This document shows positions 528 through 64,000 of a DNA stretch of 64,000 nt, one piece after another (the stretch's first letter is position 1; every line of letters starts with the position of its first letter). The stretch covers positions 1 through 64,000 of the forward strand of contig CANTFG010000256.1 in NCBI GenBank assembly GCA_947652605.1. The letters run 5' to 3'. The translations under genes and the position numbers were made by a program. The notes under the pieces are model-generated. The model was not told where the DNA came from, did no database searches, and saw nothing but the letters and a program-made list of their open reading frames with translations. This stretch comes from Elmis aenea. Taxonomy: Eukaryota; Arthropoda; Insecta; Coleoptera; Elmidae.

Positions 528-531
528 AGAT

Positions 532-831: not shown

Positions 832-840
832 GGCTTACTA

Positions 841-2084: not shown

Positions 2085-2087
2085 CAT

Positions 2088-2861: not shown

Positions 2862-2869
2862 GTCTACAG
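2862..2869. repeat. 8-bp target-site duplication, right copy
   Basis: GTCTACAG follows the right terminus of the 766-bp element and pairs with GTCTAGAG at 2088-2095. The sequence after it (CCTCTCAGATTTTAAACC) resumes the interrupted repeat copy. Confidence 0.8.
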
Positions 2870-3389
2870 CCTCTCAGATTTTAAACCAAAATCGTAGCGT
2901 AACGAAACAGCACAATCAAAAATTTTAACAGCACACGCCAGCACAACACATCTGTCTAAAAAAAATGTTTAAATTACTTGGTGGGGGGGGCTATCATGTC
3001 TACAGCCCCTCCAGTTTAAAATCAAAATTGTAGTGTAATGGAACGAGCACAATCAAAATTTTTAACAAAGCACGCCAGCACAAGGCTAGCACAACATATC
3101 TGTCTAAAAAAAATGTTTAAATTACGTGGTGGGGGGGCTATCATGTGCACAGCCCCCCCATATTAAAATTGAAATTGTAGCCTAACGGAACGAGCACAAT
3201 CAAAAATTTTAACAAAGCACGCCAGCACAAGGCTAGCACAACATATCTGTCTAAAAAAAATGTTTAAATTACGTGGTGGGGGGGCTATCATGTCCACAGC
3301 CCCCCCAAATTAAAATTGAATTTGTAGCCTAACGAAACCAGCACAATCAAAAATTTTAACAAAGCACGCCAGCACAAGGCTAGCACAAC
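2870..3389 (+). repeat. Right-arm tandem repeat, ~147-bp unit, 3.5 copies
   Basis: Three full copies end at 3095, 3242 and 3389 with GGCTAGCACAAC, which is the reverse complement of the left-arm opening. A partial copy comes first, ends at 2947, and lacks the AAGGCTAG segment. The G-run/C-run hairpin recurs at about 2987-3009, 3131-3159 and 3278-3306. Spacing is 147-148 bp. The copy ending at 3389 is nearly identical to positions 1-147 on the other strand. Confidence 0.93.
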
Positions 3390-3446
3390 CTTCTACATTT
3401 AAAAAAAAGTTACATTTCAAATGTGGGGGGGCCCAGGACATGGACC
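3390..3446. other. Junction between the transposon block and the satellite
   Basis: About 57 bp of AT-rich sequence with a G-run then CCCAGGACATGG separates the last ~147-bp repeat from the first satellite monomer. The GGGGGGGCCCAGGACATGG stretch (about 3424-3442) resembles the G-run/GGACATG core of the ~147-bp repeat and may be a diverged remnant of it. The satellite begins abruptly at TATGTTCC. Confidence 0.6.
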
Positions 3447-28257: not shown

Positions 28258-28945
28258 ATATGTTCCTTGAGCGACTATTTCTACACAATTTTAATTATTG
28301 ATTTGTATACACAGGAACAGTTTTACCATCGCCTCTTTACATGAATACAATTGTTTCTGCATATGTCTTTCAATGAGCTGGTTTTAATTTTTAATAATTT
28401 CCTAAAAATGCCGTGCTTTAGTTAATACATCGTGTTCCTTGAGCGACTATTTCTAAACAATTTTAATTATTGATTTGTATATCACAGGAACAGTTTATCC
28501 ATCGCACTCTTTACATGAATACAATTGTTTTGCATATGTCTTTCAATGAGCTGGTTTTAATTTTTAATAATTTCCTAAAAATGCCGTGCTTTAGTTAATA
28601 CATGTGTTCCTTGAGCGACTATTTCGAAACAATTTTAATTATTGATTTGTATATCACAGGAACAGTTTATCCATCGCCTCTTTACATGAATACAATTGTT
28701 TTGCATATGTCTTTTCAATGAGCTGGTTTTAATTTTTAATAATTTCCTAAAAAATACCGTGCTTTAGTTAATACATATGTTCCTTGAGCGACTATTTCGA
28801 AACAATTTTAATTATTGATTTGTATATCACAGAAACAGTTTATCCATCGCCACTTTACATGAATACAATTGTTTTTGCATATGTCTTTTAATGAGCCTGG
28901 TTTAAATTTTTAATAATTTCCTAAAAATACCGTGCTTTAGCTTAA
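28258..28945 (+). repeat. Satellite patch dense in single-base indels
   Basis: About four monomers carry at least ten lesions not seen elsewhere in the array. They include loss of ATAC near 28258, a lost base in TGTATACACAGG (28308), TTTTACC for TTTATCC (28322), GTTTCTGC (28356) and CATCGTGTTCC (28431). Further on are CGCACTC (28506), CTTTTCAATG (28714), CTAAAAAATACC (28751), GTTTTTGC (28874), GAGCCTGG (28896) and TTAGCTTAATAC (28941). Most are one-base insertions. Monomers on both sides lack such private indels. The pattern looks like unpolished long-read consensus rather than biological divergence. Confidence 0.85.
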
Positions 28946-37400: not shown

Positions 37401-38900
37401 TATTCATCGCCTCTTTACATGAATACAATTGTTTTGCATATGTCTTTCAATGAGCTGGTTTTAGATTTTAATAATTTCCTAAAAATACCGTGCTTTAGTT
37501 AATACATATGTTCCTTGAGCGACTAATCGAAACAATTTCAATTATTGATTTGTATATCACAGAAACAGTTTATCCATCGCCTCTTTACATGAATACAATT
37601 GTTTTGCATATGTCTTTCAATGAGCTGGTTTTAATTTTTAATAATTTCCTAAAAATACCGTGCTTTAGTTAATACATATGTTCCTTGAGCGACTATTTCT
37701 AAACAATTTTAATTATTGATTTGTATATCACAGGAACAGTTTATCCATCGCCTCTTTACATGAATACAATTGTTTTGCATATGTCTTTCAATGAGCTGGT
37801 TTTAATTTTTAATAATTTCCTAAAAATACCGTGCTTTAGTTAATACATGTGTTCCTTGAGCGACTATTTCTAAACAATTTTAATTATTGATTTGTATATC
37901 ACAGGAACAATTTATCCATCGCTTCTTTACATGAATACAATTGTTTTGCATATGTCTTTCAATGAGCTGGTTTTAATTTTTAATAATTTCCTAAAAATAC
38001 CGTGCTTTAGTTAATACATATGTTCCTTGAGCAACTATTTCTAAACAATTTTAATTATTGATTTGTATATCACAGGAACAGTTTATCCATCGCCTCTTTA
38101 CATGAATACAATTGTTTTGCATATGTCTTTCAATGAGCTGGTTTTAATTTTTAATAATTTCCTAAAAATACCGTGCTTTAGTTAATACATATGTTCCTTG
38201 AGCGAATATTTCGAAACAATTTCAATTATTGTTTTGTATATCACAGGAACAGTTTATCCATCGCCTCTTTACATTACTACAATTGTTTTGCATATGTCTT
38301 TCAAAGAGCTGGTTTTTAATTTTTAATAATTTCCTAAAAATACCGTGCTTTAGTTAATACATATGTTCCTTGAGCGAATATTTCGAAACAATTTCATTTA
38401 TTGATTTGTATATCACAGGAACAGTTTATTCATCGCCTCTTTACATGAATACAATTGTTTTGCATATGTCTTTCAATGAGCTGGTTTTAATTTTTAATAA
38501 TTTCCTAAAAATACCGTGCTTTAGTTAATACATATGTTCCTTGAGCGACTATTTCGAAACAATTTTAATTATTGATTTGTATATCACAGAAACAGTTTAT
38601 CCATCGCCTCTTTACATGAATACAATTGTTTTGCATATGTCTTTCAATGAGCTGGTTTTAGATTTTAATAATTTCCTAAAAATACCGTGCTTTAGTTAAT
38701 ACATATGTTCCTTGAGCGACTAATCGAAACAATTTTAATTATTGATTTGTATATCACAGAAACAGTTTATCTATCGCCTCTTTACATGAATACAATTGTT
38801 TTGCATATGTCTTTCAATGAGCTGGTTTTAATTTTTAATAATTTCCTAAAAATACCGTGCTTTAGTTAATACATATGTTCCTTGAGCGACTATTTCTAAA
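34429..38900 (+). repeat. Local 9-monomer HOR, ~1540 bp
   Basis: The ACATTACTAC monomer recurs at 35193, 36733 and 38272 (1540 and 1539 bp). The CCTTAAGCGAC monomer with TATTAATTTG recurs at 34429 and 35969 (1540 bp). The order within the repeated part is TTAAGCG, then GAATATT with ATTTTATTT, then ACAATTTATCC with CGCTTC. It continues with GAGCAAC, GAATATT with ATTACTAC, GAATATT with TTTCATTT, and then CGAAAC types. The third copy is partly replaced by other monomers. Confidence 0.75.
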
Positions 38901-40591
38901 CAATTTTAATTATTGATTTGTATATCACAGGAACAGTTTATCCATCGCCTCTTTACATGAATACAATTGTTTTGCATATGTCTTTCAATGAGCTGGTTTT
39001 AATTTTTAATAATTTCCTAAAAATACCGTGCTTTAGTTAATACATATGTTCCTTGAGCGACTATTTCGAAACAATTTTAATTATTGATTTGTATATCACA
39101 GGAACAGTTTATCCATCGCCTCTTTACATGAATACAATTGTTTTGCATATGTCTTTCAATGAGCTGGTTTTAATTTTTAATAATTTCCTAAAAATACCGT
39201 GCTTTAGTTAATACATATGTTCCTTGAGCGACTATTTCTAAACAATTTTAATTATTGATTTGTATATCACAGGAACAATTTATCCATCGCTTCTTTACAT
39301 AAATACAATTGTTTTGCATATGTCTTTCAATGTGCTGGTTTTAATTTTTAATAATTTCCTAAAAATACCGTGCTTTAGTTAATACATATGTTCCTTGAGC
39401 GACTATTTCGAAACAATTTTAATTATTGATTTGTATATCACAGGAACAGTTTATCCGTCGCTTCTTTACATGAATACAATTGTTTTGCATATGTCTTTCA
39501 ATGAGCTGGTTTTAATTTTTAATAATTTCCTAAAAATACCGTGCTTTAGTTAATACATATGTTCCTTGAGCGACTATTTCAAAACAATTTTAATTATTGA
39601 TTTGTATATCACAGGAACAGTTTATCCATCGCCTCTTTACATGAATACAATTGTTTTGCATATGTCTTTCAATGAGCTGGTTTTAATTTTTAATAATTTC
39701 CTAAAAATACCGTGCTTTAGTTAATACATATGTTCCTTGAGCGACTATTTCGAAACAATTTCAATTATTGATTTGTATATCACAGGAACAGTTTATCCAT
39801 CGCCTCTTTACATGAATACAATTGTTTTGCATATGTCTTTCAATGAGCTGGTTTTAATTTTTAATAATTTCCTAAAAATACCGTGCTTTAGTTAATACAT
39901 ATGTTCCTTGAGCGACTATTTCTGAACAATTTTAATTATTGATTTGTATATCACAGGAACAGTTTATCCATCGCCTCTTTACATGAATACAATTGTTTTG
40001 CATATGTCTTTCAATGAGCTGGTTTTAATTTTTAATAATTTCCTAAAAATACCGTGCTTTAGTTAATACATATGTTCCTTGAGCGACTATTTCTAAACAA
40101 TTTTAATTATTGATTTGTATATCACAGGAACAGTTTATCCATCGCCTCTTTACATGAATACAATTGTTTTGCATATGTCTTTCAATGAGCTGGTTTTAAT
40201 TTTTAATAATTTCCTAAAAATACCGTGCTTTAGTTACTACATATGTTCCTTGAGCGACTATTTCTAAACAATTTTAATTATTGATTTGTATATCACAGGA
40301 ACAGTTTATCCATCGCCTCTTTACATGAATAAAATTGTTTTGCATATGTCTTTCAATGAGCTGGTTTTAATTTTTAATAATTTCCTAAAAATACCGTGCT
40401 TTAGTTATTACATATGTTCCTTGAGCGACTATTTCTGAACAATTTTAATTATTGATTTGTATATCACAGGAACAGTTTATCCATCGCCTCTTTACATGAA
40501 TACAATTGTTTTGCATATGTCTTTCAATGAGCTGGTTTTAATTTTTAATAATTTCCTAAAAATACCGTGCTTTAGTTAATACATATGTTCC

Positions 40592-40882
40592 TTGAGCGAA
40601 TATTTCGAAACAATTTCAATTATTGATTTGTATATCACAGGAACAGTTTATCCATCGCCTCTTTACATTACTACAATTGTTTTGCATATGTCTTTCAAAG
40701 AGCTGGTTTTAATTTTTAATAATTTCCTAAAAATACCGTGCTTTAGTCAATACATATGTTCCTTGAGCGAATATTTCGAAACAATTTCATTTATTGATTT
40801 GTATATCACAGGAACAGTTTATCCATCGCCTCTTTACATGAATACAATTGTTTTGCATATGTCTTTCAATGAGCTGGTTTAA
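40592..40882 (+). other. Open frame across two satellite monomers, not a gene
   Basis: This 96-codon open frame arises only because a T-to-C change at 40748 turns the TAA of AGTTAATAC into CAA, which removes the one stop that most monomers share in this frame. It starts at TTG; the first in-frame ATG is inside the monomer at 40688. It stops in the GGTTTAAATT variant of the next monomer. Because 171 is 57 codons, the frame is kept from one monomer to the next and the product is an internal repeat of itself. Related monomers carry stops (TTCTAA, TTCTGA) and frame-breaking length variants, so I see no coding constraint. Confidence 0.9.
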
Positions 40883-43601: not shown

Positions 43602-46600
43602 CAAAGAGATGGTTTTAATTTTTAATAATTTCCTAAAAATACCGTGCTTTAGTTAATACATAATGTTCCTTGAGCGACTATTTCGAAACAATTTCAATTA
43701 TTGATTTGTATATCACAGGAACAGTTTATCCATCGCCTCTTTACATGAATACAATTGTTTTGCATATGTCTTTCAATGAGCTGGTTTTAATTTTTAATAA
43801 TTTCCTAAAAATACCGTGCTTTAGTTAATACATATGTTCCTTGAGCGACTATTTCGAAACAATTTTAATTATTGATTTGTATATCACAGAAACAGTTTAT
43901 CCATCGCCTCTTTACATGAATACAATTGTTTTGCATATGTCTTTCAATGGGCTGGTTTTAATTTTTAATAATTTCCTAAAAATACCGTGCTTTAGTTAAT
44001 ACATATGTTCCTTGAGCGACTATTTCTAAACAATTTTAATTATTGATTTGTATATCACAGGAACAGTTTATCCATCGCCTCTTTACATGAATACAATTGT
44101 TTTGCATATGTCTTTCAATGAGCTGGTTTTAATTTTTAATAATTTCCTAAAAATGCCGTGCTTTAGTTAATACATGTGTTCCTTGAGCGACTATTTCGAA
44201 ACAATTTTAATTATTGATTTGTATATCACAGGAACAGTTTATCCATCGCCTCTTTACATGAATACAATTGTTTTGCATATGTCTTTCAATGAGCTGGTTT
44301 TAATTTTTAATAATTTCCTAAAAATACCGTGCTTTAGTTAATACATATGTTCCTTGAGCGACTATTTCTACACAATTTTAATTATTGATTTGTATATCAC
44401 AGGAACAGTTTATCCATCGCCTCTTTACATGAATACAATTGTTTTGCATATGTCTTTCAATGAGCTGGTTTTAATTTTTAATAATTTCCTAAAAATACCG
44501 TGCTTTAGTTAATACATATGTTCCTTGAGCGACTATTTCTAAACAATTTTAATTATTGATTTGTATATCACAGGAACAGTTTATCCATCGCCTCTTTACA
44601 TGAATACAATTGTTTTGCATATGTCTTTCAATGAGCTGGTTTTAATTTTTAATAATTTCCTAAAAATGCCGTGCTTTAGTTAATACATGTGTTCCTTGAG
44701 CGACTATTTCGAAACAATTTTAATTATTGATTTGTATATCACAGGAACAGTTTATCCATCGCCTCTTTACATGAATACAATTGTTTTGCATATGTCTTTC
44801 AATGAGCTGGTTTTAATTTTTAATAATTTCCTAAAAATACCGTGCTTTAGTTAATACATATGTTCCTTGAGCGACTATTTCGAAACAATTTTAATTATTG
44901 ATTTGTATATCACAGAAACAGTTTATCCATCGCCACTTTACATGAATACAATTGTTTTGCATATGTCTTTTAATGAGCTGGTTTAAATTTTTAATAATTT
45001 CCTAAAAATACCGTGCTTTAGTTAATACATATGTTCCTTGAGCGACTATTTCGAAACAATTTTAATTATTGATTTGTATATCACAGAAACAGTTTATCCA
45101 TCGCCTCTTTACATGAATACAATTGTTTTGCATATGTCTTTCAATGAGTTGGTTTTAATTTTTAATAATTTCCTAAAAATACCGTGCTTTAGTTAATACA
45201 TGTGTTCCTTGAGCGACTATTTCTAAACAATTTTAATTATTGATTTGTATATCACAGGAACAGTTTATCCATCGCCTCTTTACATGAATACAATTGTTTT
45301 GCATATGTCTTTCAATGAGCTGGTTTTAATTTTTAATAATTTCCTAAAAATGCCGTGCTTTAGTTAATACATGTGTTCCTTGAGCGACTATTTCGAAACA
45401 ATTTTAATTATTGATTTGTATATCACAGGAACAGTTTATCCATCGCCTCTTTACATGAATACAATTGTTTTGCATATGTCTTTCAATGAGCTGGTTTTAA
45501 TTTTTAATAATTTCCTAAAAATACCGTGCTTTAGTTAATACATATGTTCCTTGAGCGACTATTTCTACACAATTTTAATTATTGATTTGTATATCACAGG
45601 AACAGTTTATCCATCGCCTCTTTACATGAATACAATTGTTTTGCATATGTCTTTCAATGAGCTGGTTTTAATTTTTAATAATTTCCTAAAAATACCGTGC
45701 TTTAGTTAATACATATGTTCCTTGAGCGACTATTTCGAAACAATTTTAATTATTGATTTGTATATCACAGAAACAGTTTATCCATCGCCACTTTACATGA
45801 ATACAATTGTTTTGCATATGTCTTTTAATGAGCTGGTTTAAATTTTTAATAATTTCCTAAAAATACCGTGCTTTAGTTAATACATATGTTCCTTGAGCGA
45901 CTATTTCGAAACAATTTTAATTATTGATTTGTATATCACAGAAACAGTTTATCCATCGCCTCTTTACATGAATACAATTGTTTTGCATATGTCTTTCAAT
46001 GAGTTGGTTTTAATTTTTAATAATTTCCTAAAAATACCGTGCTTTAGTTAATACATGTGTTCCTTGAGCGACTATTTCTAAACAATTTTAATTATTGATT
46101 TGTATATCACAGGAACAGTTTATCCATCGCCTCTTTACATGAATACAATTGTTTTGCATATGTCTTTCAATGAGCTGGTTTTAATTTTTAATAATTTCCT
46201 AAAAATGCCGTGCTTTAGTTAATACATGTGTTCCTTGAGCGACTATTTCGAAACAATTTTAATTATTGATTTGTATATCACAGGAACAGTTTATCCATCG
46301 CCTCTTTACATGAATACAATTGTTTTGCATATGTCTTTCAATGAGCTGGTTTTAATTTTTAATAATTTCCTAAAAATACCGTGCTTTAGTTAATACATAT
46401 GTTCCTTGAGCGACTATTTCTACACAATTTTAATTATTGATTTGTATATCACAGGAACAGTTTATCCATCGCCTCTTTACATGAATACAATTGTTTTGCA
46501 TATGTCTTTCAATGAGCTGGTTTTAATTTTTAATAATTTCCTAAAAATACCGTGCTTTAGTTAATACATATGTTCCTTGAGCGACTATTTCGAAACAATT

Positions 46601-49250
46601 TTAATTATTGATTTGTATATCACAGGAACAGTTTATCCATCGCCTCTTTACATGAATACAATTGTTTTGCATATGTCTTTCAATGAGCTGGTTTTAATTT
46701 TTAATAATTTCCTAAAAATACCGTGCTTTAGTTAATACATATGTTCCTTAAGCGACTATTTCTAAACAATTTTAATTATTAATTTGTATATCACAGGAAC
46801 AATTTATCCATCGCTTCTTTACATGAATACAATTGTTTTGCATATGTCTTTCAATGAGCTGGTTTTTAATTTTTAATAATTTCCTAAAAATACCGTGCTT
46901 TAGTTAATACATATGTTCCTTGAGCGAATATTTCGAAACAATTTTATTTATTGATTTGTATATCACAGGAACAGTTTATCCATCGCCTCTTTACATGAAT
47001 ACAATTGTTTTGCATATGTCTTTCAATGAGCTGGTTTTAATTTTTAATAATTTCCTAAAAATACCGTGCTTTAGTTAATACATATGTTCCTTGAGCGACT
47101 ATTTCTAAACAATTTTAATTATTGATTTGTATATCACAGGAACAATTTATCCATCGCTTCTTTACATGAATACAATTGTTTTGCATATGTCTTTCAATGA
47201 GCTGGTTTTAATTTTTAATAATTTCCTAAAAATACCGTGCTTTAGTTAATACATATGTTCCTTGAGCAACTATTTCTAAACAATTTTAATTATTGATTTG
47301 TATATCACAGGAACAGTTTATCCATCGCCTCTTTACATGAATACAATTGTTTTGCATATGTCTTTCAATGAGCTGGTTTTAATTTTTAATAATTTCCTAA
47401 AAATACCGTGCTTTAGTTAATACATATGTTCCTTGAGCGAATATTTCGAAACAATTTCAATTATTGATTTGTATATCACAGGAACAGTTTATCCATCGCC
47501 TCTTTACATTACTACAATTGTTTTGCATATGTCTTTCAAAGAGCTGGTTTTTAATTTTTAATAATTTCCTAAAAATACCGTGCTTTAGTTAATACATATG
47601 TTCCTTGAGCGAATATTTCGAAACAATTTCATTTATTGATTTGTATATCACAGGAACAGTTTATCCATCGCCTCTTTACATGAATACAATTGTTTTGCAT
47701 ATGTCTTTCAATGAGCTGGTTTTAATTTTTAATAATTTCCTAAAAATACCGTGCTTTAGTTAATACATATGTTCCTTGAGCGACTATTTCGAAACAATTT
47801 CAATTATTGATTTGTATATCACAGGAACAGTTTATCCATCGCCTCTTTACATGAATACAATTGTTTTGCATATTATGTCTTTCAATGAGCTGGTTTTAAT
47901 TTTTAATAATTTCCTAAAAATACCGTGCTTTAGTTAATACATATGTTCCTTGAGCGACTATTTCGAAACAATTTTAATTATTGATTTGTATATCACAGAA
48001 ACAGTTTATCCATCGCCACTTTACATGAATACAATTGTTTTGCATATGTCTTTTAATGAGCTGGTTTAAATTTTTAATAATTTCCTAAAAATACCGTGCT
48101 TTAGTTAATACATATGTTCCTTGAGCGACTATTTCGAAACAATTTTAATTATTGATTTGTATATCACAGGAACAGTTTATCCATCGCCTCTTTACATGAA
48201 TACAATTGTTTTGCATATGTCTTTCAATGAGCTGGTTTTAATTTTTAATAATTTCCTAAAAATACCGTGCTTTAGTTAATACATATGTTCCTTGAGCGAC
48301 TATTTCTAAACAATTTTAATTATTGATTTGTATATCACAGGAACAATTTATCCATCGCTTTTTTTCATAAATACAATTGTTTTGCATATGTCTTTCAATG
48401 AGCTGGTTTTAATTTTTAATAATTTCCTAAAAATACCGTGCTTTAGTTAATACATATGTTCCTTGAGCGACTATTTCGAAACAATTTTAATTATTGATTT
48501 GTATATTACAGGAACAGTTTATCCATCGCCTCTTTACATGAATACAATTGTTTTGCATATGTCTTTCAATGAGCTGGTTTTAATTTTTAATAATTTCCTA
48601 AAAATACCGTGCTTTAGTTAATACATATGTTCCTTGAGCGACTATTTCAAAACAATTTTAATTATTGATTTGTATATCACAGGAACAGTTTATCCATCGC
48701 CTCTTTACATGAATACAATTGTTTTGCATATGTCTTTCAATGAGCTGGTTTTAATTTTTAATAATTTCCTAAAAATACCGTGCTTTAGTTAATACATATG
48801 TTCCTTGAGCGACTATTTCGAAACAATTTCAATTATTGATTTGTATATCACAGGAACAGTTTATCCATCGCCTCTTTACATGAATACAATTGTTTTGCAT
48901 ATGTCTTTCAATGAGCTGGTTTTAATTTTTAATAATTTCCTAAAAATAACGTGCTTTAGTTAATACATATGTTCCTTGAGCGACTATTTCTGAACAATTT
49001 TAATTATTGATTTGTATATCACAGGAACAGTTTATCCATCGCCTCTTTACATGAATACAATTGTTTTGCATATGTCTTTCAATGAGCTGGTTTTAATTTT
49101 TAATAATTTCCTAAAAATACCGTGCTTTAGTTAATACATATGTTCCTTGAGCGACTATTTCTGAACAATTTTAATTATTGATTTGTATATCACAGGAACA
49201 GTTTATCCATCATCTCTTTACATGAATACAATTGTTTTGCATATGTCTTT
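43602..49250 (+). repeat. Domain II HOR unit A1, 33 monomers, 5649 bp
   Basis: The unit is bounded by the CAAAGAGATGG monomer at 43602 and 49251. Inside, in order, are ACATAATGTTCC, AATGGGCTGG, TGCCGTGC/ACATGTG pairs, CTACAC, CGCCACTTT and GAGTTGG. A second CGCCACTTT/GAGTTGG set follows 855 bp later (5 monomers), so this is an internal duplication. Then come TTAAGCG, GAGCAAC, ACATTACTAC (47507), CATATTATGTC (47871), another CGCCACTTT, a CGCTTTTTTTCAT monomer, and back to the start. It is one of two complete 33-monomer units of identical length in the window. Confidence 0.85.
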
Positions 49251-52200
49251 CAAAGAGATGGTTTTAATTTTTAATAATTTCCTAAAAATACCGTGCTTTA
49301 GTTAATACATAATGTTCCTTGAGCGACTATTTCGAAACAATTTCAATTATTGATTTGTATATCACAGGAACAGTTTATCCATCGCCTCTTTACATGAATA
49401 CAATTGTTTTGCATATGTCTTTCAATGAGCTGGTTTTAATTTTTAATAATTTCCTAAAAATACCGTGCTTTAGTTAATACATATGTTCCTTGAGCGACTA
49501 TTTCGAAACAATTTTAATTATTGATTTGTATATCACAGAAACAGTTTATCCATCGCCTCTTTACATGAATACAATTGTTTTGCATATGTCTTTCAATGGG
49601 CTGGTTTTAATTTTTAATAATTTCCTAAAAATACCGTGCTTTAGTTAATACATATGTTCCTTGAGCGACTATTTCTAAACAATTTTAATTATTGATTTGT
49701 ATATCACAGGAACAGTTTATCCATCGCCTCTTTACATGAATACAATTGTTTTGCATATGTCTTTCAATGAGCTGGTTTTAATTTTTAATAATTTCCTAAA
49801 AATGCCGTGCTTTAGTTAATACATGTGTTCCTTGAGCGACTATTTCGAAACAATTTTAATTATTGATTTGTATATCACAGGAACAGTTTATCCATCGCCT
49901 CTTTACATGAATACAATTGTTTTGCATATGTCTTTCAATGAGCTGGTTTTAATTTTTAATAATTTCCTAAAAATACCGTGCTTTAGTTAATACATATGTT
50001 CCTTGAGCGACTATTTCTACACAATTTTAATTATTGATTTGTATATCACAGGAACAGTTTATCCATCGCCTCTTTACATGAATACAATTGTTTTGCATAT
50101 GTCTTTCAATGAGCTGGTTTTAATTTTTAATAATTTCCTAAAAATACCGTGCTTTAGTTAATACATATGTTCCTTGAGCGACTATTTCTAAACAATTTTA
50201 ATTATTGATTTGTATATCACAGGAACAGTTTATCCATCGCCTCTTTACATGAATACAATTGTTTTGCATATGTCTTTCAATGAGCTGGTTTTAATTTTTA
50301 ATAATTTCCTAAAAATGCCGTGCTTTAGTTAATACATGTGTTCCTTGAGCGACTATTTCGAAACAATTTTAATTATTGATTTGTATATCACAGGAACAGT
50401 TTATCCATCGCCTCTTTACATGAATACAATTGTTTTGCATATGTCTTTCAATGAGCTGGTTTTAATTTTTAATAATTTCCTAAAAATACCGTGCTTTAGT
50501 TAATACATATGTTCCTTGAGCGACTATTTCGAAACAATTTTAATTATTGATTTGTATATCACAGAAACAGTTTATCCATCGCCACTTTACATGAATACAA
50601 TTGTTTTGCATATGTCTTTTAATGAGCTGGTTTAAATTTTTAATAATTTCCTAAAAATACCGTGCTTTAGTTAATACATATGTTCCTTGAGCGACTATTT
50701 CGAAACAATTTTAATTATTGATTTGTATATCACAGAAACAGTTTATCCATCGCCTCTTTACATGAATACAATTGTTTTGCATATGTCTTTCAATGAGTTG
50801 GTTTTAATTTTTAATAATTTCCTAAAAATACCGTGCTTTAGTTAATACATGTGTTCCTTGAGCGACTATTTCTAAACAATTTTAATTATTGATTTGTATA
50901 TCACAGGAACAGCTTATCCATCGCCTCTTTACATGAATACAATTGTTTTGCATATGTCTTTCAATGAGCTGGTTTTAATTTTTAATAATTTCCTAAAAAT
51001 GCCGTGCTTTAGTTAATACATGTGTTCCTTGAGCGACTATTTCGAAACAATTTTAATTATTGATTTGTATATCACAGGAACAGTTTATCCATCGCCTCTT
51101 TACATGAATACAATTGTTTTGCATATGTCTTTCAATGAGCTGGTTTTAATTTTTAATAATTTCCTAAAAATACCGTGCTTTAGTTAATACATATGTTCCT
51201 TGAGCGACTATTTCTACACAATTTTAATTATTGATTTGTATATCACAGGAACAGTTTATCCATCGCCTCTTTACATGAATACAATTGTTTTGCATATGTC
51301 TTTCAATGAGCTGGTTTTAATTTTTAATAATTTCCTAAAAATACCGTGCTTTAGTTAATACATATGTTCCTTGAGCGACTATTTCGAAACAATTTTAATT
51401 ATTGATTTGTATATCACAGAAACAGTTTATCCATCGCCACTTTACATGAATACAATTGTTTTGCATATGTCTTTTAATGAGCTGGTTTTAATTTTTAATA
51501 ATTTCCTAAAAATACCGTGCTTTAGTTAATACATATGTTCCTTGAGCAACTATTTCTAAACAATTTTAATTATTGATTTGTATATCACAGGAACAGTTTA
51601 TCCATCGCCTCTTTACATGAATACAATTGTTTTGCATATGTCTTTCAATGAGCTGGTTTTAATTTTTAATAATTTCCTAAAAATACCGTGCTTTAGTTAA
51701 TACATATGTTCCTTGAGCGAATATTTCGAAACAATTTCAATTATTGATTTGTATATCACAGGAACAGTTTATCCATCGCCTCTTTACATTACTACAATTG
51801 TTTTGCATATGTCTTTCAAAGAGCTGGTTTTTAATTTTTAATAATTTCCTAAAAATACCGTGCTTTAGTTAATACATATGTTCCTTGAGCGAATATTTCG
51901 AAACAATTTCATTTATTGATTTGTATATCACAGGAACAGTTTATCCATCGCCTCTTTACATGAATACAATTGTTTTGCATATGTCTTTCAATGAGCTGGT
52001 TTTAATTTTTAATAATTTCCTAAAAATACCGTGCTTTAGTTAATACATATGTTCCTTGAGCGACTATTTCGAAACAATTTCAATTATTGATTTGTATATC
52101 ACAGGAACAGTTTATCCATCGCCTCTTTACATGAATACAATTGTTTTGCATATTATGTCTTTCAATGAGCTGGTTTTAATTTTTAATAATTTCCTAAAAA

Positions 52201-53359
52201 TACCGTGCTTTAGTTAATACATATGTTCCTTGAGCGACTATTTCGAAACAATTTTAATTATTGATTTGTATATCACAGAAACAGTTTATCCATCGCCACT
52301 TTACATGAATACAATTGTTTTGCATATGTCTTTTAATGAGCTGGTTTAAATTTTTAATAATTTCCTAAAAATACCGTGCTTTAGTTAATACATATGTTCC
52401 TTGAGCGACTATTTCGAAACAATTTTAATTATTGATTTGTATATCACAGGAACAGTTTATCCATCGCCTCTTTACATGAATACAATTGTTTTGCATATGT
52501 CTTTCAATGAGCTGGTTTTAATTTTTAATAATTTCCTAAAAATACCGTGCTTTAGTTAATACATATGTTCCTTGAGCGACTATTTCGAAACAATTTTAAT
52601 TATTGATTTGTATATTACAGGAACAGTTTATCCATCGCCTCTTTACATGAATACAATTGTTTTGCATATGTCTTTCAATGAGCTGGTTTTAATTTTTAAT
52701 AATTTCCTAAAAATACCGTGCTTTAGTTAATACATATGTTCCTTGAGCGACTATTTCAAAACAATTTTAATTATTGATTTGTATATCACAGGAACAGTTT
52801 ATCCATCGCCTCTTTACATGAATACAATTGTTTTGCATATGTCTTTCAATGAGCTGGTTTTAATTTTTAATAATTTCCTAAAAATACCGTGCTTTAGTTA
52901 ATACATATGTTCCTTGAGCGACTATTTCGAAACAATTTCAATTATTGATTTGTATATCACAGGAACAGTTTATCCATCGCCTCTTTACATGAATACAATT
53001 GTTTTGCATATGTCTTTCAATGAGCTGGTTTTAATTTTTAATAATTTCCTAAAAATAACGTGCTTTAGTTAATACATATGTTCCTTGAGCGACTATTTCT
53101 GAACAATTTTAATTATTGATTTGTATATCACAGGAACAGTTTATCCATCGCCTCTTTACATGAATACAATTGTTTTGCATATGTCTTTCAATGAGCTGGT
53201 TTTAATTTTTAATAATTTCCTAAAAATACCGTGCTTTAGTTAATACATATGTTCCTTGAGCGACTATTTCTGAACAATTTTAATTATTGATTTGTATATC
53301 ACAGGAACAGTTTATCCATCACCTCTTTACATGAATACAATTGTTTTGCATATGTCTTT
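49251..53359 (+). repeat. Domain II HOR unit B1, 24 monomers (deleted form of A)
   Basis: Bounded by the CAAAGAGATGG monomer at 49251 and 53360 (4109 bp). It follows unit A until the second CGCCACTTT monomer (about 51.43 kb). That monomer ends GGTTTTAATT instead of GGTTTAAATT and runs straight into the GAGCAAC monomer near 51.54 kb, so eight monomers present in A (about 45.9-47.26 kb) are missing. The ACAATTTATCC/CGCTTTTTT monomer near 48.3 kb in A is also absent. Eight plus one accounts exactly for 33 minus 24. Confidence 0.85.
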
Positions 53360-56300
53360 CAAAGAGATGGTTTTAATTTTTAATAATTTCCTAAAAATAC
53401 CGTGCTTTAGTTAATACATAATGTTCCTTGAGCGACTATTTCGAAACAATTTCAATTATTGATTTGTATATCACAGGAACAGTTTATCCATCGCCTCTTT
53501 ACATGAATACAATTGTTTTGCATATGTCTTTCAATGAGCTGGTTTTAATTTTTAATAATTTCCTAAAAATACCGTGCTTTAGTTAATACATATGTTCCTT
53601 GAGCGACTATTTCGAAACAATTTTAATTATTGATTTGTATATCACAGAAACAGTTTATCCATCGCCTCTTTACATGAATACAATTGTTTTGCATATGTCT
53701 TTCAATGGGCTGGTTTTAATTTTTAATAATTTCCTAAAAATACCGTGCTTTAGTTAATACATATGTTCCTTGAGCGACTATTTCTAAACAATTTTAATTA
53801 TTGATTTGTATATCACAGGAACAGTTTATCCATCGCCTCTTTACATGAATACAATTGTTTTGCATATGTCTTTCAATGAGCTGGTTTTAATTTTTAATAA
53901 TTTCCTAAAAATGCCGTGCTTTAGTTAATACATGTGTTCCTTGAGCGACTATTTCGAAACAATTTTAATTATTGATTTGTATATCACAGGAACAGTTTAT
54001 CCATCGCCTCTTTACATGAATACAATTGTTTTGCATATGTCTTTCAATGAGCTGGTTTTAATTTTTAATAATTTCCTAAAAATACCGTGCTTTAGTTAAT
54101 ACATATGTTCCTTGAGCGACTATTTCTACACAATTTTAATTATTGATTTGTATATCACAGGAACAGTTTATCCATCGCCTCTTTACATGAATACAATTGT
54201 TTTGCATATGTCTTTCAATGAGCTGGTTTTAATTTTTAATAATTTCCTAAAAATACCGTGCTTTAGTTAATACATATGTTCCTTGAGCGACTATTTCTAA
54301 ACAATTTTAATTATTGATTTGTATATCACAGGAACAGTTTATCCATCGCCTCTTTACATGAATACAATTGTTTTGCATATGTCTTTCAATGAGCTGGTTT
54401 TAATTTTTAATAATTTCCTAAAAATGCCGTGCTTTAGTTAATACATGTGTTCCTTGAGCGACTATTTCGAAACAATTTTAATTATTGATTTGTATATCAC
54501 AGGAACAGTTTATCCATCGCCTCTTTACATGAATACAATTGTTTTGCATATGTCTTTCAATGAGCTGGTTTTAATTTTTAATAATTTCCTAAAAATACCG
54601 TGCTTTAGTTAATACATATGTTCCTTGAGCGACTATTTCGAAACAATTTTAATTATTGATTTGTATATCACAGAAACAGTTTATCCATCGCCACTTTACA
54701 TGAATACAATTGTTTTGCATATGTCTTTTAATGAGCTGGTTTAAATTTTTAATAATTTCCTAAAAATACCGTGCTTTAGTTAATACATATGTTCCTTGAG
54801 CGACTATTTCGAAACAATTTTAATTATTGATTTGTATATCACAGAAACAGTTTATCCATCGCCTCTTTACATGAATACAATTGTTTTGCATATGTCTTTC
54901 AATGAGTTGGTTTTAATTTTTAATAATTTCCTAAAAATACCGTGCTTTAGTTAATACATGTGTTCCTTGAGCGACTATTTCTAAACAATTTTAATTATTG
55001 ATTTGTATATCACAGGAACAGTTTATCCATCGCCTCTTTACATGAATACAATTGTTTTGCATATGTCTTTCAATGAGCTGGTTTTAATTTTTAATAATTT
55101 CCTAAAAATGCCGTGCTTTAGTTAATACATGTGTTCCTTGAGCGACTATTTCGAAACAATTTTAATTATTGATTTGTATATCACAGGAACAGTTTATCCA
55201 TCGCCTCTTTACATGAATACAATTGTTTTGCATATGTCTTTCAATGAGCTGGTTTTAATTTTTAATAATTTCCTAAAAATACCGTGCTTTAGTTAATACA
55301 TATGTTCCTTGAGCGACTATTTCTACACAATTTTAATTATTGATTTGTATATCACAGGAACAGTTTATCCATCGCCTCTTTACATGAATACAATTGTTTT
55401 GCATATGTCTTTCAATGAGCTGGTTTTAATTTTTAATAATTTCCTAAAAATACCGTGCTTTAGTTAATACATATGTTCCTTGAGCGACTATTTCGAAACA
55501 ATTTTAATTATTGATTTGTATATCACAGAAACAGTTTATCCATCGCCACTTTACATGAATACAATTGTTTTGCATATGTCTTTTAATGAGCTGGTTTAAA
55601 TTTTTAATAATTTCCTAAAAATACCGTGCTTTAGTTAATACATATGTTCCTTGAGCGACTATTTCGAAACAATTTTAATTATTGATTTGTATATCACAGA
55701 AACAGTTTATCCATCGCCTCTTTACATGAATACAATTGTTTTGCATATGTCTTTCAATGAGTTGGTTTTAATTTTTAATAATTTCCTAAAAATACCGTGC
55801 TTTAGTTAATACATGTGTTCCTTGAGCGACTATTTCTAAACAATTTTAATTATTGATTTGTATATCACAGGAACAGTTTATCCATCGCCTCTTTACATGA
55901 ATACAATTGTTTTGCATATGTCTTTCAATGAGCTGGTTTTAATTTTTAATAATTTCCTAAAAATGCCGTGCTTTAGTTAATACATGTGTTCCTTGAGCGA
56001 CTATTTCGAAACAATTTTAATTATTGATTTGTATATCACAGGAACAGTTTATCCATCGCCTCTTTACATGAATACAATTGTTTTGCATATGTCTTTCAAT
56101 GAGCTGGTTTAAATTTTTAATAATTTCCTAAAAATACCGTGCTTTAGTTAATACATATGTTCCTTGAGCGACTATTTCGAAACAATTTTAATTATTGATT
56201 TGTATATCACAGGAACAGTTTATCCATCGCCTCTTTACATGAATACAATTGTTTTGCATATGTCTTTCAATGAGCTGGTTTTAATTTTTAATAATTTCCT

Positions 56301-59008
56301 AAAAATACCGTGCTTTAGTTAATACATATGTTCCTTGAGCGACTATTTCGAAACAATTTTAATTATTGATTTGTATATCACAGGAACAGTTTATCCATCG
56401 CCTCTTTACATGAATACAATTGTTTTGCATATGTCTTTCAATGAGCTGGTTTTAATTTTTAATAATTTCCTAAAAATACCGTGCTTTAGTTAATACATAT
56501 GTTCCTTAAGCGACTATTTCTAAACAATTTTAATTATTAATTTGTATATCACAGGAACAATTTATCCATCGCTTCTTTACATGAATACAATTGTTTTGCA
56601 TATGTCTTTCAATGAGCTGGTTTTTAATTTTTAATAATTTCCTAAAAATACCGTGCTTTAGTTAATACATATGTTCCTTGAGCGAATATTTCGAAACAAT
56701 TTTATTTATTGATTTGTATATCACAGGAACAGTTTATCCATCGCCTCTTTACATGAATACAATTGTTTTGCATATGTCTTTCAATGAGCTGGTTTTAATT
56801 TTTAATAATTTCCTAAAAATACCGTGCTTTAGTTAATACATATGTTCCTTGAGCGACTATTTCTAAACAATTTTAATTATTGATTTGTATATCACAGGAA
56901 CAATTTATCCATCGCTTCTTTACATGAATACAATTGTTTTGCATATGTCTTTCAATGAGCTGGTTTTAATTTTTAATAATTTCCTAAAAATACCGTGCTT
57001 TAGTTAATACATATGTTCCTTGAGCAACTATTTCTAAACAATTTTAATTATTGATTTGTATATCACAGGAACAGTTTATCCATCGCCTCTTTACATGAAT
57101 ACAATTGTTTTGCATATGTCTTTCAATGAGCTGGTTTTAATTTTTAATAATTTCCTAAAAATACCGTGCTTTAGTTAATACATATGTTCCTTGAGCGAAT
57201 ATTTCGAAACAATTTCAATTATTGATTTGTATATCACAGGAACAGTTTATCCATCGCCTCTTTACATTACTACAATTGTTTTGCATATGTCTTTCAAAGA
57301 GCTGGTTTTTAATTTTTAATAATTTCCTAAAAATACCGTGCTTTAGTTAATACATATGTTCCTTGAGCGAATATTTCGAAACAATTTCATTTATTGATTT
57401 GTATATCACAGGAACAGTTTATCCATCGCCTCTTTACATGAATACAATTGTTTTGCATATGTCTTTCAATGAGCTGGTTTTAATTTTTAATAATTTCCTA
57501 AAAATACCGTGCTTTAGTTAATACATATGTTCCTTGAGCGACTATTTCGAAACAATTTCAATTATTGATTTGTATATCACAGGAACAGTTTATCCATCGC
57601 CTCTTTACATGAATACAATTGTTTTGCATATTATGTCTTTCAATGAGCTGGTTTTAATTTTTAATAATTTCCTAAAAATACCGTGCTTTAGTTAATACAT
57701 ATGTTCCTTGAGCGACTATTTCGAAACAATTTTAATTATTGATTTGTATATCACAGAAACAGTTTATCCATCGCCACTTTACATGAATACAATTGTTTTG
57801 CATATGTCTTTTAATGAGCTGGTTTAAATTTTTAATAATTTCCTAAAAATACCGTGCTTTAGTTAATACATATGTTCCTTGAGCGACTATTTCGAAACAA
57901 TTTTAATTATTGATTTGTATATCACAGGAACAGTTTATCCATCGCCTCTTTACATGAATACAATTGTTTTGCATATGTCTTTCAATGAGCTGGTTTTAAT
58001 TTTTAATAATTTCCTAAAAATACCGTGCTTTAGTTAATACATATGTTCCTTGAGCGACTATTTCTAAACAATTTTAATTATTGATTTGTATATCACAGGA
58101 ACAATTTATCCATCGCTTTTTTACATAAATACAATTGTTTTGCATATGTCTTTCAATGAGCTGGTTTTAATTTTTAATAATTTCCTAAAAATACCGTGCT
58201 TTAGTTAATACATATGTTCCTTGAGCGACTATTTCGAAACAATTTTAATTATTGATTTGTATATTACAGGAACAGTTTATCCATCGCCTCTTTACATGAA
58301 TACAATTGTTTTGCATATGTCTTTCAATGAGCTGGTTTTAATTTTTAATAATTTCCTAAAAATACCGTGCTTTAGTTAATACATATGTTCCTTGAGCGAC
58401 TATTTCAAAACAATTTTAATTATTGATTTGTATATCACAGGAACAGTTTATCCATCGCCTCTTTACATGAATACAATTGTTTTGCATATGTCTTTCAATG
58501 AGCTGGTTTTAATTTTTAATAATTTCCTAAAAATACCGTGCTTTAGTTAATACATATGTTCCTTGAGCGACTATTTCGAAACAATTTCAATTATTGATTT
58601 GTATATCACAGGAACAGTTTATCCATCGCCTCTTTACATGAATACAATTGTTTTGCATATGTCTTTCAATGAGCTGGTTTTAATTTTTAATAATTTCCTA
58701 AAAATAACGTGCTTTAGTTAATACATATGTTCCTTGAGCGACTATTTCTGAACAATTTTAATTATTGATTTGTATATCACAGGAACAGTTTATCCATCGC
58801 CTCTTTACATGAATACAATTGTTTTGCATATGTCTTTCAATGAGCTGGTTTTAATTTTTAATAATTTCCTAAAAATACCGTGCTTTAGTTAATACATATG
58901 TTCCTTGAGCGACTATTTCTGAACAATTTTAATTATTGATTTGTATATCACAGGAACAGTTTATCCATCACCTCTTTACATGAATACAATTGTTTTGCAT
59001 ATGTCTTT
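53360..59008 (+). repeat. Domain II HOR unit A2, 33 monomers, 5649 bp
   Basis: Same length as A1 to the base and the same marker order at a constant offset of 9758 bp: AATGGGCTGG at 43947 and 53705, the first CGCCACTTT near 44933 and 54691, and CATATTATGTC at 47871 and 57629. A few substitutions differ. For example, one CTACAC monomer of A1 (about 46.42 kb) reads CGAAAC here, and the monomer near 56.1 kb has GGTTTAAATT. Confidence 0.85.
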
Positions 59009-62000
59009 CAAAGAGATGGTTTTAATTTTTAATAATTTCCTAAAAATACCGTGCTTTAGTTAATACATAATGTTCCTTGAGCGACTATTTCGAAACAATT
59101 TCAATTATTGATTTGTATATCACAGGAACAGTTTATCCATCGCCTCTTTACATGAATACAATTGTTTTGCATATGTCTTTCAATGAGCTGGTTTTAATTT
59201 TTAATAATTTCCTAAAAATACCGTGCTTTAGTTAATACATATGTTCCTTGAGCGACTATTTCGAAACAATTTTAATTATTGATTTGTATATCACAGAAAC
59301 AGTTTATCCATCGCCTCTTTACATGAATACAATTGTTTTGCATATGTCTTTCAATGGGCTGGTTTTAATTTTTAATAATTTCCTAAAAATACCGTGCTTT
59401 AGTTAATACATATGTTCCTTGAGCGACTATTTCTAAACAATTTTAATTATTGATTTGTATATCACAGGAACAGTTTATCCATCGCCTCTTTACATGAATA
59501 CAATTGTTTTGCATATGTCTTTCAATGAGCTGGTTTTAATTTTTAATAATTTCCTAAAAATGCCGTGCTTTAGTTAATACATGTGTTCCTTGAGCGACTA
59601 TTTCGAAACAATTTTAATTATTGATTTGTATATCACAGGAACAGTTTATCCATCGCCTCTTTACATGAATACAATTGTTTTGCATATGTCTTTCAATGAG
59701 CTGGTTTTAATTTTTAATAATTTCCTAAAAATACCGTGCTTTAGTTAATACATATGTTCCTTGAGCGACTATTTCTACACAATTTTAATTATTGATTTGT
59801 ATATCACAGGAACAGTTTATCCATCGCCTCTTTACATGAATACAATTGTTTTGCATATGTCTTTCAATGAGCTGGTTTTAATTTTTAATAATTTCCTAAA
59901 AATACCGTGCTTTAGTTAATACATATGTTCCTTGAGCGACTATTTCTAAACAATTTTAATTATTGATTTGTATATCACAGGAACAGTTTATCCATCGCCT
60001 CTTTACATGAATACAATTGTTTTGCATATGTCTTTCAATGAGCTGGTTTTAATTTTTAATAATTTCCTAAAAATGCCGTGCTTTAGTTAATACATGTGTT
60101 CCTTGAGCGACTATTTCGAAACAATTTTAATTATTGATTTGTATATCACAGGAACAGTTTATCCATCGCCTCTTTACATGAATACAATTGTTTTGCATAT
60201 GTCTTTCAATGAGCTGGTTTTAATTTTTAATAATTTCCTAAAAATACCGTGCTTTAGTTAATACATATGTTCCTTGAGCGACTATTTCGAAACAATTTTA
60301 ATTATTGATTTGTATATCACAGAAACAGTTTATCCATCGCCACTTTACATGAATACAATTGTTTTGCATATGTCTTTTAATGAGCTGGTTTAAATTTTTA
60401 ATAATTTCCTAAAAATACCGTGCTTTAGTTAATACATATGTTCCTTGAGCGACTATTTCGAAACAATTTTAATTATTGATTTGTATATCACAGAAACAGT
60501 TTATCCATCGCCTCTTTACATGAATACAATTGTTTTGCATATGTCTTTCAATGAGTTGGTTTTAATTTTTAATAATTTCCTAAAAATACCGTGCTTTAGT
60601 TAATACATGTGTTCCTTGAGCGACTATTTCTAAACAATTTTAATTATTGATTTGTATATCACAGGAACAGTTTATCCATCGCCTCTTTACATGAATACAA
60701 TTGTTTTGCATATGTCTTTCAATGAGCTGGTTTTAATTTTTAATAATTTCCTAAAAATGCCGTGCTTTAGTTAATACATGTGTTCCTTGAGCGACTATTT
60801 CGAAACAATTTTAATTATTGATTTGTATATCACAGGAACAGTTTATCCATCGCCTCTTTACATGAATACAATTGTTTTGCATATGTCTTTCAATGAGCTG
60901 GTTTTAATTTTTAATAATTTCCTAAAAATACCGTGCTTTAGTTAATACATATGTTCCTTGAGCGACTATTTCTACACAATTTTAATTATTGATTTGTATA
61001 TCACAGGAACAGTTTATCCATCGCCTCTTTACATGAATACAATTGTTTTGCATATGTCTTTCAATGAGCTGGTTTTAATTTTTAATAATTTCCTAAAAAT
61101 ACCGTGCTTTAGTTAATACATATGTTCCTTGAGCGACTATTTCGAAACAATTTTAATTATTGATTTGTATATCACAGGAACAGTTTATCCATCGCCTCTT
61201 TACATGAATACAATTGTTTTGCATATGTCTTTCAATGAGCTGGTTTTAATTTTTAATAATTTCCTAAAAATACCGTGCTTTAGTTAATACATATGTTCCT
61301 TAAGCGACTATTTCTAAACAATTTTAATTATTGATTTGTATATCACAGGAACAATTTATCCATCGCTTCTTTACATGAATACAATTGTTTTGCATATGTC
61401 TTTCAATGAGCTGGTTTTTAATTTTTAATAATTTCCTAAAAATACCGTGCTTTAGTTAATACATATGTTCCTTGAGCGAATATTTCGAAACAATTTTATT
61501 TATTGATTTGTATATCACAGGAACAGTTTATCCATCGCCTCTTTACATGAATACAATTGTTTTGCATATGTCTTTCAATGAGCTGGTTTTAATTTTTAAT
61601 AATTTCCTAAAAATACCGTGCTTTAGTTAATACATATGTTCCTTGAGCGACTATTTCTAAACAATTTTAATTATTGATTTGTATATCACAGGAACAATTT
61701 ATCCATCGCTTCTTTACATGAATACAATTGTTTTGCATATGTCTTTCAATGAGCTGGTTTTAATTTTTAATAATTTCCTAAAAATACCGTGCTTTAGTTA
61801 ATACATATGTTCCTTGAGCAACTATTTCTAAACAATTTTAATTATTGATTTGTATATCACAGGAACAGTTTATCCATCGCCTCTTTACATGAATACAATT
61901 GTTTTGCATATGTCTTTCAATGAGCTGGTTTTAATTTTTAATAATTTCCTAAAAATACCGTGCTTTAGTTAATACATATGTTCCTTGAGCGAATATTTCG

Positions 62001-63286
62001 AAACAATTTCAATTATTGATTTGTATATCACAGGAACAGTTTATCCATCGCCTCTTTACATTACTACAATTGTTTTGCATATGTCTTTCAAAGAGCTGGT
62101 TTTTAATTTTTAATAATTTCCTAAAAATACCGTGCTTTAGTTAATACATATGTTCCTTGAGCGAATATTTCGAAACAATTTCATTTATTGATTTGTATAT
62201 CACAGGAACAGTTTATCCATCGCCTCTTTACATGAATACAATTGTTTTGCATATGTCTTTCAATGAGCTGGTTTTAATTTTTAATAAATTCCTAAAAATA
62301 CCGTGCTTTAGTTAATACATATGTTCCTTGAGCGACTATTTCAAAACAATTTTAATTATTGATTTGTATATCACAGGAACAATTTATCCATCGCTTTTTT
62401 ACATAAATACAATTGTTTTGCATATGTCTTTCAATGAGCTGGTTTTAATTTTTAATAATTTCCTAAAAATACCGTGCTTTAGTTAATACATATGTTCCTT
62501 GAGCGACTATTTCGAAACAATTTTAATTATTGATTTGTATATTACAGGAACAGTTTATCCATCGCCTCTTTACATGAATACAATTGTTTTGCATATGTCT
62601 TTCAATGAGCTGGTTTTAATTTTTAATAATTTCCTAAAAATACCGTGCTTTAGTTAATACATATGTTCCTTGAGCGACTATTTCAAAACAATTTTAATTA
62701 TTGATTTGTATATCACAGGAACAGTTTATCCATCGCCTCTTTACATGAATACAATTGTTTTGCATATGTCTTTCAATGAGCTGGTTTTAATTTTTAATAA
62801 TTTCCTAAAAATACCGTGCTTTAGTTAATACATATGTTCCTTGAGCGACTATTTCGAAACAATTTCAATTATTGATTTGTATATCACAGGAACAGTTTAT
62901 CCATCGCCTCTTTACATGAATACAATTGTTTTGCATATGTCTTTCAATGAGCTGGTTTTAATTTTTAATAATTTCCTAAAAATAACGTGCTTTAGTTAAT
63001 ACATATGTTCCTTGAGCGACTATTTCTGAACAATTTTAATTATTGATTTGTATATCACAGGAACAGTTTATCCATCGCCTCTTTACATGAATACAATTGT
63101 TTTGCATATGTCTTTCAATGAGCTGGTTTTAATTTTTAATAATTTCCTAAAAATACCGTGCTTTAGTTAATACATATGTTCCTTGAGCGACTATTTCTGA
63201 ACAATTTTAATTATTGATTTGTATATCACAGGAACAGTTTATCCATCACCTCTTTACATGAATACAATTGTTTTGCATATGTCTTT
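59009..63286 (+). repeat. Domain II HOR unit B2, 25 monomers (different deletion of A)
   Basis: Bounded by the CAAAGAGATGG monomer at 59009 and 63287 (4278 bp). Relative to A it has only one CGCCACTTT/GAGTTGG five-monomer set (minus 5). The TTTCATTT monomer near 62.2 kb, which ends with TAAATTCC, is followed directly by a CAAAACAATT monomer with CGCTTTTTTAC, which drops three monomers including CATATTATGTC (minus 3). The sum accounts for 33 minus 25. The deletion points differ from B1, so the two short units arose separately. Confidence 0.82.
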
Positions 63287-64000
63287 CAAAGAGATGGTTT
63301 TAATTTTTAATAATTTCCTAAAAATACCGTGCTTTAGTTAATACATAATGTTCCTTGAGCGACTATTTCGAAACAATTTCAATTATTGATTTGTATATCA
63401 CAGGAACAGTTTATCCATCGCCTCTTTACATGAATACAATTGTTTTGCATATGTCTTTCAATGAGCTGGTTTTAATTTTTAATAATTTCCTAAAAATACC
63501 GTGCTTTAGTTAATACATATGTTCCTTGAGCGACTATTTCGAAACAATTTTAATTATTGATTTGTATATCACAGAAACAGTTTATCCATCGCCTCTTTAC
63601 ATGAATACAATTGTTTTGCATATGTCTTTCAATGGGCTGGTTTTAATTTTTAATAATTTCCTAAAAATACCGTGCTTTAGTTAATACATATGTTCCTTGA
63701 GCGACTATTTCTAAACAATTTTAATTATTGATTTGTATATCACAGGAACAGTTTATCCATCGCCTCTTTACATGAATACAATTGTTTTGCATATGTCTTT
63801 CAATGAGCTGGTTTTAATTTTTAATAATTTCCTAAAAATGCCGTGCTTTAGTTAATACATGTGTTCCTTGAGCGACTATTTCGAAACAATTTTAATTATT
63901 GATTTGTATATCACAGGAACAGTTTATCCATCGCCTCTTTACATGAATACAATTGTTTTGCATATGTCTTTCAATGAGCTGGTTTTAATTTTTAATAATT
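63287..64000 (+). repeat. Domain II HOR unit, partial, cut by window end
   Basis: The next unit starts like A and B, with ACATAATGTTCC then AATGGGCTGG near 63632, a TGCCGTGC/ACATGTG pair and a CGAAAC monomer. It is cut after about four monomers, so whether it is a long or short form cannot be told. Confidence 0.85.

Follow-up and report, generated by a model that had tools for sequence, protein, structure and literature searches.

A young, apparently private HOR block with units of unequal length in a 171-bp satellite array

Cascading HORs of alpha satellite are defined by monomer types that are repeated within the unit, and their variants lie beside a canonical copy (PMC11050224, in part). 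In the human chromosome 15 cascading arrays covered by the same source, which have 429 and 164 copies, the canonical form accounts for 65% and 94%, respectively; such canonical dominance is a trait of the published cascading arrays and lies outside the quoted definition. Units of many monomers are also on record: a 33mer alpha-satellite HOR with a monomer of ~171 bp is described for human chromosome 21 (PMC6718397, in part), and a 52mer and a 59mer HOR appear in the titles of PMC12385485 and PMC11276891. Very similar monomers arranged in HOR blocks, their similarity falling with distance, are described for Populus Palv156, with reference to Arabidopsis CEN178 (PMC12046899, in part). For D1Z5 and other human HOR arrays, it has been proposed that crossovers expand and homogenise domains, with sporadic mutation and conversion differentiating them (PMC2853522, in part).

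The window analysed here covers bases 1 to 64,000 of contig C238 (286,464 bp), from an assembly of 516.4 Mb in 302 contigs. Within its satellite array the original prediction had recognised one 33-monomer repeat with alternating long and short units; the markers, the unit lengths and the in-register deletions on which this was based all hold, whereas the alternation does not hold as a super-period. The marker monomer, CAAAGAGATGG, occurs in the window at exactly 43602, 49251, 53360, 59009 and 63287 (a mean of 0 in 100 shuffles), and the predicted intervals of 5649, 4109, 5649 and 4278 bp are exact without exception, corresponding to 33, 24, 33 and 25 monomers. Later marker intervals on C238 are 1369, 4280 and 4620 bp (8, 25 and 27 monomers) and then become irregular. 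Instead of a fixed unit length, the block therefore has seven tandem units of 33, 24, 33, 25, 8, 25 and 27 monomers, in this order, and the resemblance fades after ~75.6 kb. Its features are as follows.

3447 to 64000, forward strand: 171-bp satellite array in a single orientation, copies ~97% identical, continuing to the end of C238
42234 to 43601, forward strand: final ~8 monomers of an incomplete unit preceding A1, the left edge of the block
43602 to 49250, forward strand: unit A1, 5649 bp, 33 monomers, 25 distinct sequences
44800 to 45654, forward strand: copy 1 of the internal 5-monomer duplication of A1, the same monomer word as copy 2
45655 to 46509, forward strand: copy 2 of the internal 5-monomer duplication of A1
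49251 to 53359, forward strand: unit B1, 24 monomers, a 33-type unit minus 8 and minus 1
51475 to 51645, forward strand: junction monomer of B1 (id 108), which can be read as a hybrid between the two monomers that bound the 8-monomer deletion
53360 to 59008, forward strand: unit A2, 5649 bp, 33 monomers, 26 distinct sequences
59009 to 63286, forward strand: unit B2, 25 monomers, without the 5-monomer duplicate and 3 more monomers
62261 to 62431, forward strand: junction monomer of B2 (id 111), one base from the junction monomer of D (id 113)
63287 to 64000, forward strand: start of unit C in the window; the whole unit, 8 monomers, is at contig 63287-64655
contig 64656-68935: unit D, 25 monomers
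contig 68936-73555: unit E, 27 monomers

A1 and A2 were predicted to have the same length and an offset of 9758 bp, and they align at that offset without gaps and with 5 mismatches in 5649 bp (99.91% identity). Monomers within A1 have a mean identity of 97.2% (2.8% mean difference, with 12 of 528 pairs identical), so that the expected excess of A1-A2 identity over identity among monomers is present, and with it the hallmark of a HOR, units that are more alike than the monomers inside them. A Willard-type HOR, in which all monomers are of different types, is rejected, the 33 monomers of the unit being drawn from 25 (A1) or 26 (A2) sequences. Monomer types recur inside one unit, as in cascading HORs, and variants lie beside a canonical copy as they do there; in A, the monomer word 65-102-55-56-74 stands twice in succession, the two copies being identical in A1 and differing by one variant monomer in A2. 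Unlike the chromosome 15 arrays, however, the block comprises seven units, only two of which are full 33-mers, and no canonical copy dominates. With the chromosome 21 33mer it has in common the unit count and a monomer of ~171 bp, a length match that is taken as coincidence. In contrast to that HOR, the consensus monomer here, which was scanned in place of each single monomer, carries no full CENP-B box on either strand, and the monomers are ~97% alike. The scan used the CENP-B box consensus. Length itself had been thought unusual in the original prediction, a point that carries little weight: set against the 33, 52 and 59 monomers reported in primates, a 33-monomer unit is not exceptional.

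The predicted derivation of the short units from the long one, by loss of 8+1 and 5+3 monomers in register, is borne out by the fitted deletions. With 1369 and 171 bp removed, A2 differs from B1 at 1 site (A1 at 2), and with 855 and 516 bp removed it differs from B2 at 3 sites (A1 at 5). Unit C is A2 minus a single in-register deletion of 4280 bp, with 1 mismatch left, and E fits A2 more poorly, with 11 mismatches after two deletions. Each length change fitted for B1, B2, C and E amounts to an integral number of monomers, where in the two-deletion fits the first deletion was tried near whole-monomer sizes only and the total was fixed by the unit lengths. D leaves 38 mismatches when derived from A by two deletions in this ungapped test, because of its 2-bp length difference, and fits only through B2, from which it differs by 2 mismatches and those 2 bp and with which it has the 3-monomer deletion in common. 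B1 starts the second copy of the 5-monomer word before skipping 8 monomers, and is therefore a 33-type unit. The 33-type units A1, B1 and A2 thus lie together on the left, and B2, D and E, without the 5-monomer duplicate, on the right, C being too short to assign to either lineage.

Four junction monomers were compared with their presumed parents, with one to four candidate 3' parents for each. Prefix and suffix cover the B1 junction monomer fully and those of C and D in all but 1 base (that of D, id 113, being a 103 prefix plus a 109 suffix but for 1 base), and do not cover that of B2, which agrees poorly with its presumed parents by itself and can be fitted only by way of the D junction. The exchange in B1 is placed within the first ~14 bases of the monomer (breakpoint interval 2225-2238 of B1), and the test covers the entire monomer, yet rests on one site. 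As the breakpoints of the C and B2 junctions are uncertain across almost one whole monomer, and the B1 hybrid depends on that single site, the hybrids count as weak evidence; given how few sites distinguish the monomers, an exact match of one to another is of limited informative value. The deletions of B1 and B2 differ, which rules out that the two are copies of one short unit, and B2 has a junction in common with D; B1 and B2 were therefore shortened independently. The suggestion that short forms arise repeatedly by in-register exchange is supported by these different deletions, always of whole monomers.

In the array, TRF returns 353.8 copies of the 171-bp repeat. The whole of C238 was cut into 1508 monomers of 430 distinct sequences (later analyses of distance and word counts used a list of 1507), with 6 breaks in monomer spacing; the sole anchor match on the reverse strand lies outside the array, at 617. 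Mean distance from the consensus is 1.7% for the 1365 monomers of exactly 171 bp, other lengths being left out. An LTR element of BEL/Pao type lies inside the satellite array. (TTAGG)n, a repeat that marks arthropods, was found at the start of contig C3 and, among the matches listed, at interstitial places of C1 and C2; together with the BEL/Pao element it points to an arthropod genome. Two monomer pieces (15 and 16 bases, both strands) were absent from the texts of the papers searched, an absence of little weight, as main texts seldom print sequences. The strand fold of one monomer was rejected as a functional sign (z -0.46, with 67 of 200 shuffles equal or better under DNA parameters), as was an RNA family in window positions 1-6000, where the one match scored 21.4 bits against a gathering score of 75, and a full CENP-B box in the consensus monomer.

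When the 516.4-Mb assembly is searched with a 118-bp pattern of the marker monomer, 8 places match, all of them at 43602-73673 of C238. The HOR block, ~42.2-75.6 kb of this contig (~33 kb), is thus apparently private to this place, a privacy that refers to the marker pattern and holds for that monomer. Against the whole 33-mer, the best matches on other contigs reach 97-98%, which equals the monomer background (6 of 2907 candidates scored); C238 itself was not among the matches listed, and the figure alone is no proof that closer copies are absent, so that the marker pattern provides the firmer test. Satellite relatives lie inside the large contigs C1, C6, C7, C8 and C9 among the matches listed, at several places on C1. 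Slots exactly shared with C238 make up 37 of 46 in an 8-kb sample of C174 and 45 of 57 in a 10-kb sample of C9, and ordered monomer pairs are shared in 23 of 45 cases for C174 (shuffle mean 3.64) and 28 of 56 for C9 (shuffle mean 8.17), values reached by 0 of 1000 shuffles in both. In these two small samples the three contigs have their stock of monomers and their short modules in common; the long unit was seen on C238 only. Words of the block recur in the adjoining 3.4-42.2 kb (226 monomers) for 7 of 67 threes, 3 of 79 fours, 1 of 90 fives and 0 of 99 sixes, and to the right of the block, in 1092 slots with nearly five times the monomers, for 3, 0, 0 and 0; looser margins yield identical counts. 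Since pieces of the unit are found mostly in the left neighbourhood, the unit seems to have formed from there.

A lasting alternation of long and short units is not what the contig holds past the window. There the units have 8, 25 and 27 monomers before the pattern dissolves, the long and short pair that was expected to recur does not do so, and after the second 'period' of 9927 bp (53360 to 63287) comes a unit of 8 monomers rather than a long one. With 2 long units among 7, chance alone would put the two at a distance of two places in 5 of the 21 orders, and the alternation is therefore weak evidence of anything. Among the 45 marker intervals of C238, 4 have the same value as the interval two steps on, where 0.66 are expected (permutation p 0.0026); without the first 7 intervals, which belong to the block, the count falls to 2 (p 0.12). 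Neighbouring intervals are equal in 0 cases (0.67 expected), and intervals three steps apart in 2 (p 0.14). The long-short-long duplication imagined in the original prediction does occur nearby on the contig, as 22-13-22 monomers at 263964-273706, where the first 3760 bp align with 1 mismatch, and as 1026-1537-1026 bp at 103300-106888, with 1 mismatch in 1026 bp. Both cases lie outside the block and are plain tandem duplications of a segment with two markers, which give an a-b-a pattern by themselves. Alternations and unit lengths followed over two periods in a satellite provide no basis for a super-unit reading.

We put at about 80% the probability that this is a young, private, local HOR block produced by in-register unequal exchange, with copied blocks of about 28 to 33 monomers and single copies shortened later. 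About 28 adjacent monomers would have been duplicated in tandem when copies out of alignment underwent homologous exchange, through unequal sister-chromatid exchange or an equivalent repair event, sister-chromatid exchange being presumably the route rather than another form of homologous repair. The internal 5-monomer duplication would have arisen in one lineage, to which A1, A2 and the parent of B1 belong as 33-type units, and the lineage of B2 and D would have lost 3 monomers; single copies, namely B1, C and E, would have been cut short by in-register exchange at a later time. The 5-monomer difference could reflect gain in A or loss in the others, and more than one order of events could fit. 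That order, and unequal exchange as the agent, we infer from the unit identities, the whole-monomer deletions, the shared and unshared junctions and the privacy of the marker observed at the locus. Related units sit side by side in the block. The alternation would follow incidentally from which one of three adjoining 33-type units happened to be shortened, and a unit-counting or functional mechanism is unnecessary. In-register unequal exchange explains the observations and comes close to the proposal for human HORs in the cited part of PMC2853522, where the agents put forward for D1Z5 are the same, in another satellite and another phylum.

Were the long and short units instead amplified as a pair, the repeat unit would be 57 monomers, or 9758 bp. 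The near-identity of A1 and A2 at precisely this offset speaks for such a unit, as do the true long-short-long duplications elsewhere on C238 and the excess of equal intervals two steps apart, which weakens when the block is removed. We regard it as unlikely, and its amplification as not supported: a pair copy would give B1 twice, and what follows A2 is B2, a different deletion form that lacks the 5-monomer duplication of A and has its 3-monomer deletion in common with D, before the next units break the pattern altogether. Nor does the left edge agree. Sequence upstream of 43602 compares with that upstream of 59009 at 2 mismatches over 8 monomers and then diverges (ungapped comparison), but matches the end of B1 for only ~5 monomers (1 mismatch), where ~11 would be needed if one 57-monomer duplication had been joined at the hybrid monomer; a single duplication of this kind is accordingly disfavoured as the whole story.

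It is slightly less probable still that collapsed or duplicated reads made the repeated long unit. The assembly gives some cause for suspicion, in that the last 5613 bp of C238 are identical to 84471-90083, which renders the contig end suspect, and a stretch of 5608 bp starting at 192312 recurs without change at an offset of 6102; these two exact long duplications, both outside the block, may be assembly effects. The block, however, is interior to the contig and lies clear of the two suspect stretches; 5 sites separate A1 from A2, the distinctive B1 stands between them, and duplication of reads would hardly make short copies with changes of their own. Copying of an excised circle by rolling-circle replication, followed by reinsertion, is an established idea for near-identical tandem units and would also yield a sharp edge. 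As a substitute for stepwise exchange we think it improbable here, for a circle predicts units that are equal at first, whereas the block has five unit lengths that are nested and spatially sorted, with the proviso that later exchange could hide units that were initially equal.

Copying of blocks is not confined to the HOR. Repeated 10-monomer blocks, scored when 10 monomers recur no more than 100 monomers away and show 9 or fewer differences per 1710 bp, take in 951 of the 1513 slots (monomers plus breaks) of C238, against 0 in 20 shuffles of monomer order. The commonest block offsets are 33, 57, 90, 53, 35, 85, 58 and 59 monomers, several of them from the HOR block, and the longest nearby runs, based on exact 171-base words occurring 2-12 times, have offsets of 53, 57, 40, 35, 63, 59, 19, 33, 22, 85 and 16 monomers. 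Pairs of identical 5-monomer words lie within 25 kb in 85.0% of 407 cases versus 16.9% of random pairs, and without the HOR block in 75.1% of 193 versus 17.8%. Identical monomer pairs amount to 2.7% at 1-3 kb and 2.9% at 3-6 kb (2.8% and 2.5% without the HOR block) and to about 1% beyond 50 kb; the values at 1-6 kb are roughly double the background. Single-monomer difference, by comparison, is almost flat with distance, at 0.029-0.032 per site in all distance classes, and adjacent monomers are identical in 1.46% of cases versus 1.24% when shuffled, a value reached by 509 of 2000 shuffles. The clustering of words and the missing excess among neighbours argue that turnover copies blocks and not single monomers. 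The clustered 5-monomer words, together with the LTR element in the array, recall Palv156, to which this arthropod 171-bp monomer is likened by organisation and not by sequence; in contrast to Palv156 (PMC12046899, in part), only block identity falls with distance here. A stronger claim, that the satellite turns over almost only by many-monomer blocks (offsets ~1-12 kb) with a preferred misalignment length, is on the evidence of one contig possible but doubtful. If true, such a preferred length, which might be imposed by chromatin loops or by tracts of repair synthesis, would be the origin of HORs.

The block is a real, young and apparently private HOR of a known type, a case of ordinary satellite evolution. 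It offers a clear, small example of the birth and erosion of a HOR, in which single in-register losses can be read at the level of the base, and looks like ordinary satellite-DNA turnover displayed with unusual clarity.

Outside the higher-order block (about 42.2-75.6 kb), the long-short-long order of marker intervals, the spacings between copies of the marker sequence, is found at two places on contig CANTFG010000256.1:

263964-273706, long-short-long run, a single mismatch over the initial 3760 bp
103300-106888, long-short-long run, 1 mismatch in 1026 bp

Each of these runs is one near-perfect tandem duplication. This contig also holds exact repeats: the 5608 bp starting at 192312 have an exact second copy at an offset of 6102, and the contig end (280852-286464) is identical over 5613 bp to the internal positions 84471-90083, 196 kb apart, possibly an end effect of the assembly graph.

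Features other than the satellite lie within and beside the array, and at the start of C3, another contig of the assembly:

94720-101190, BEL/Pao retrotransposon inserted in the satellite array, with Peptidase_A17, integrase zinc-binding and DUF1759 domains
200745-208401 together with 194643-198009, three long open reading frames of 1212, 473 and 516 aa
1-3446, non-satellite stretch at the left flank of the array, with 147-bp repeats towards both ends
C3 1-508, telomere-type repeat (CCTAA)n = (TTAGG)n at the contig start

By eye, the 1212-, 473- and 516-aa frames look like candidates for LTR-retrotransposon gag-pol. In the left flank, the 147-bp repeats occupy 1-503 and their inverted copies 2929-3389. 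None of the listed open frames of at least 90 codons falls in 1-3446. On visual reading, an internal piece of this flank seems both to be repeated in inverted orientation and to code for a reverse-transcriptase-like motif. Short interstitial (TTAGG)n stretches are also found on contigs C1 and C2, among the matches listed.

On contig C174, the listed matches to monomers 1-4 of A1, the 33-monomer unit at 43602-49250, extend over 28585-40749 with spacings of 2226, 3422, 2226 and 3593 bp, corresponding to 13, 20, 13 and 21 monomers. This region forms another short run in which unit lengths alternate, with mostly different monomers.
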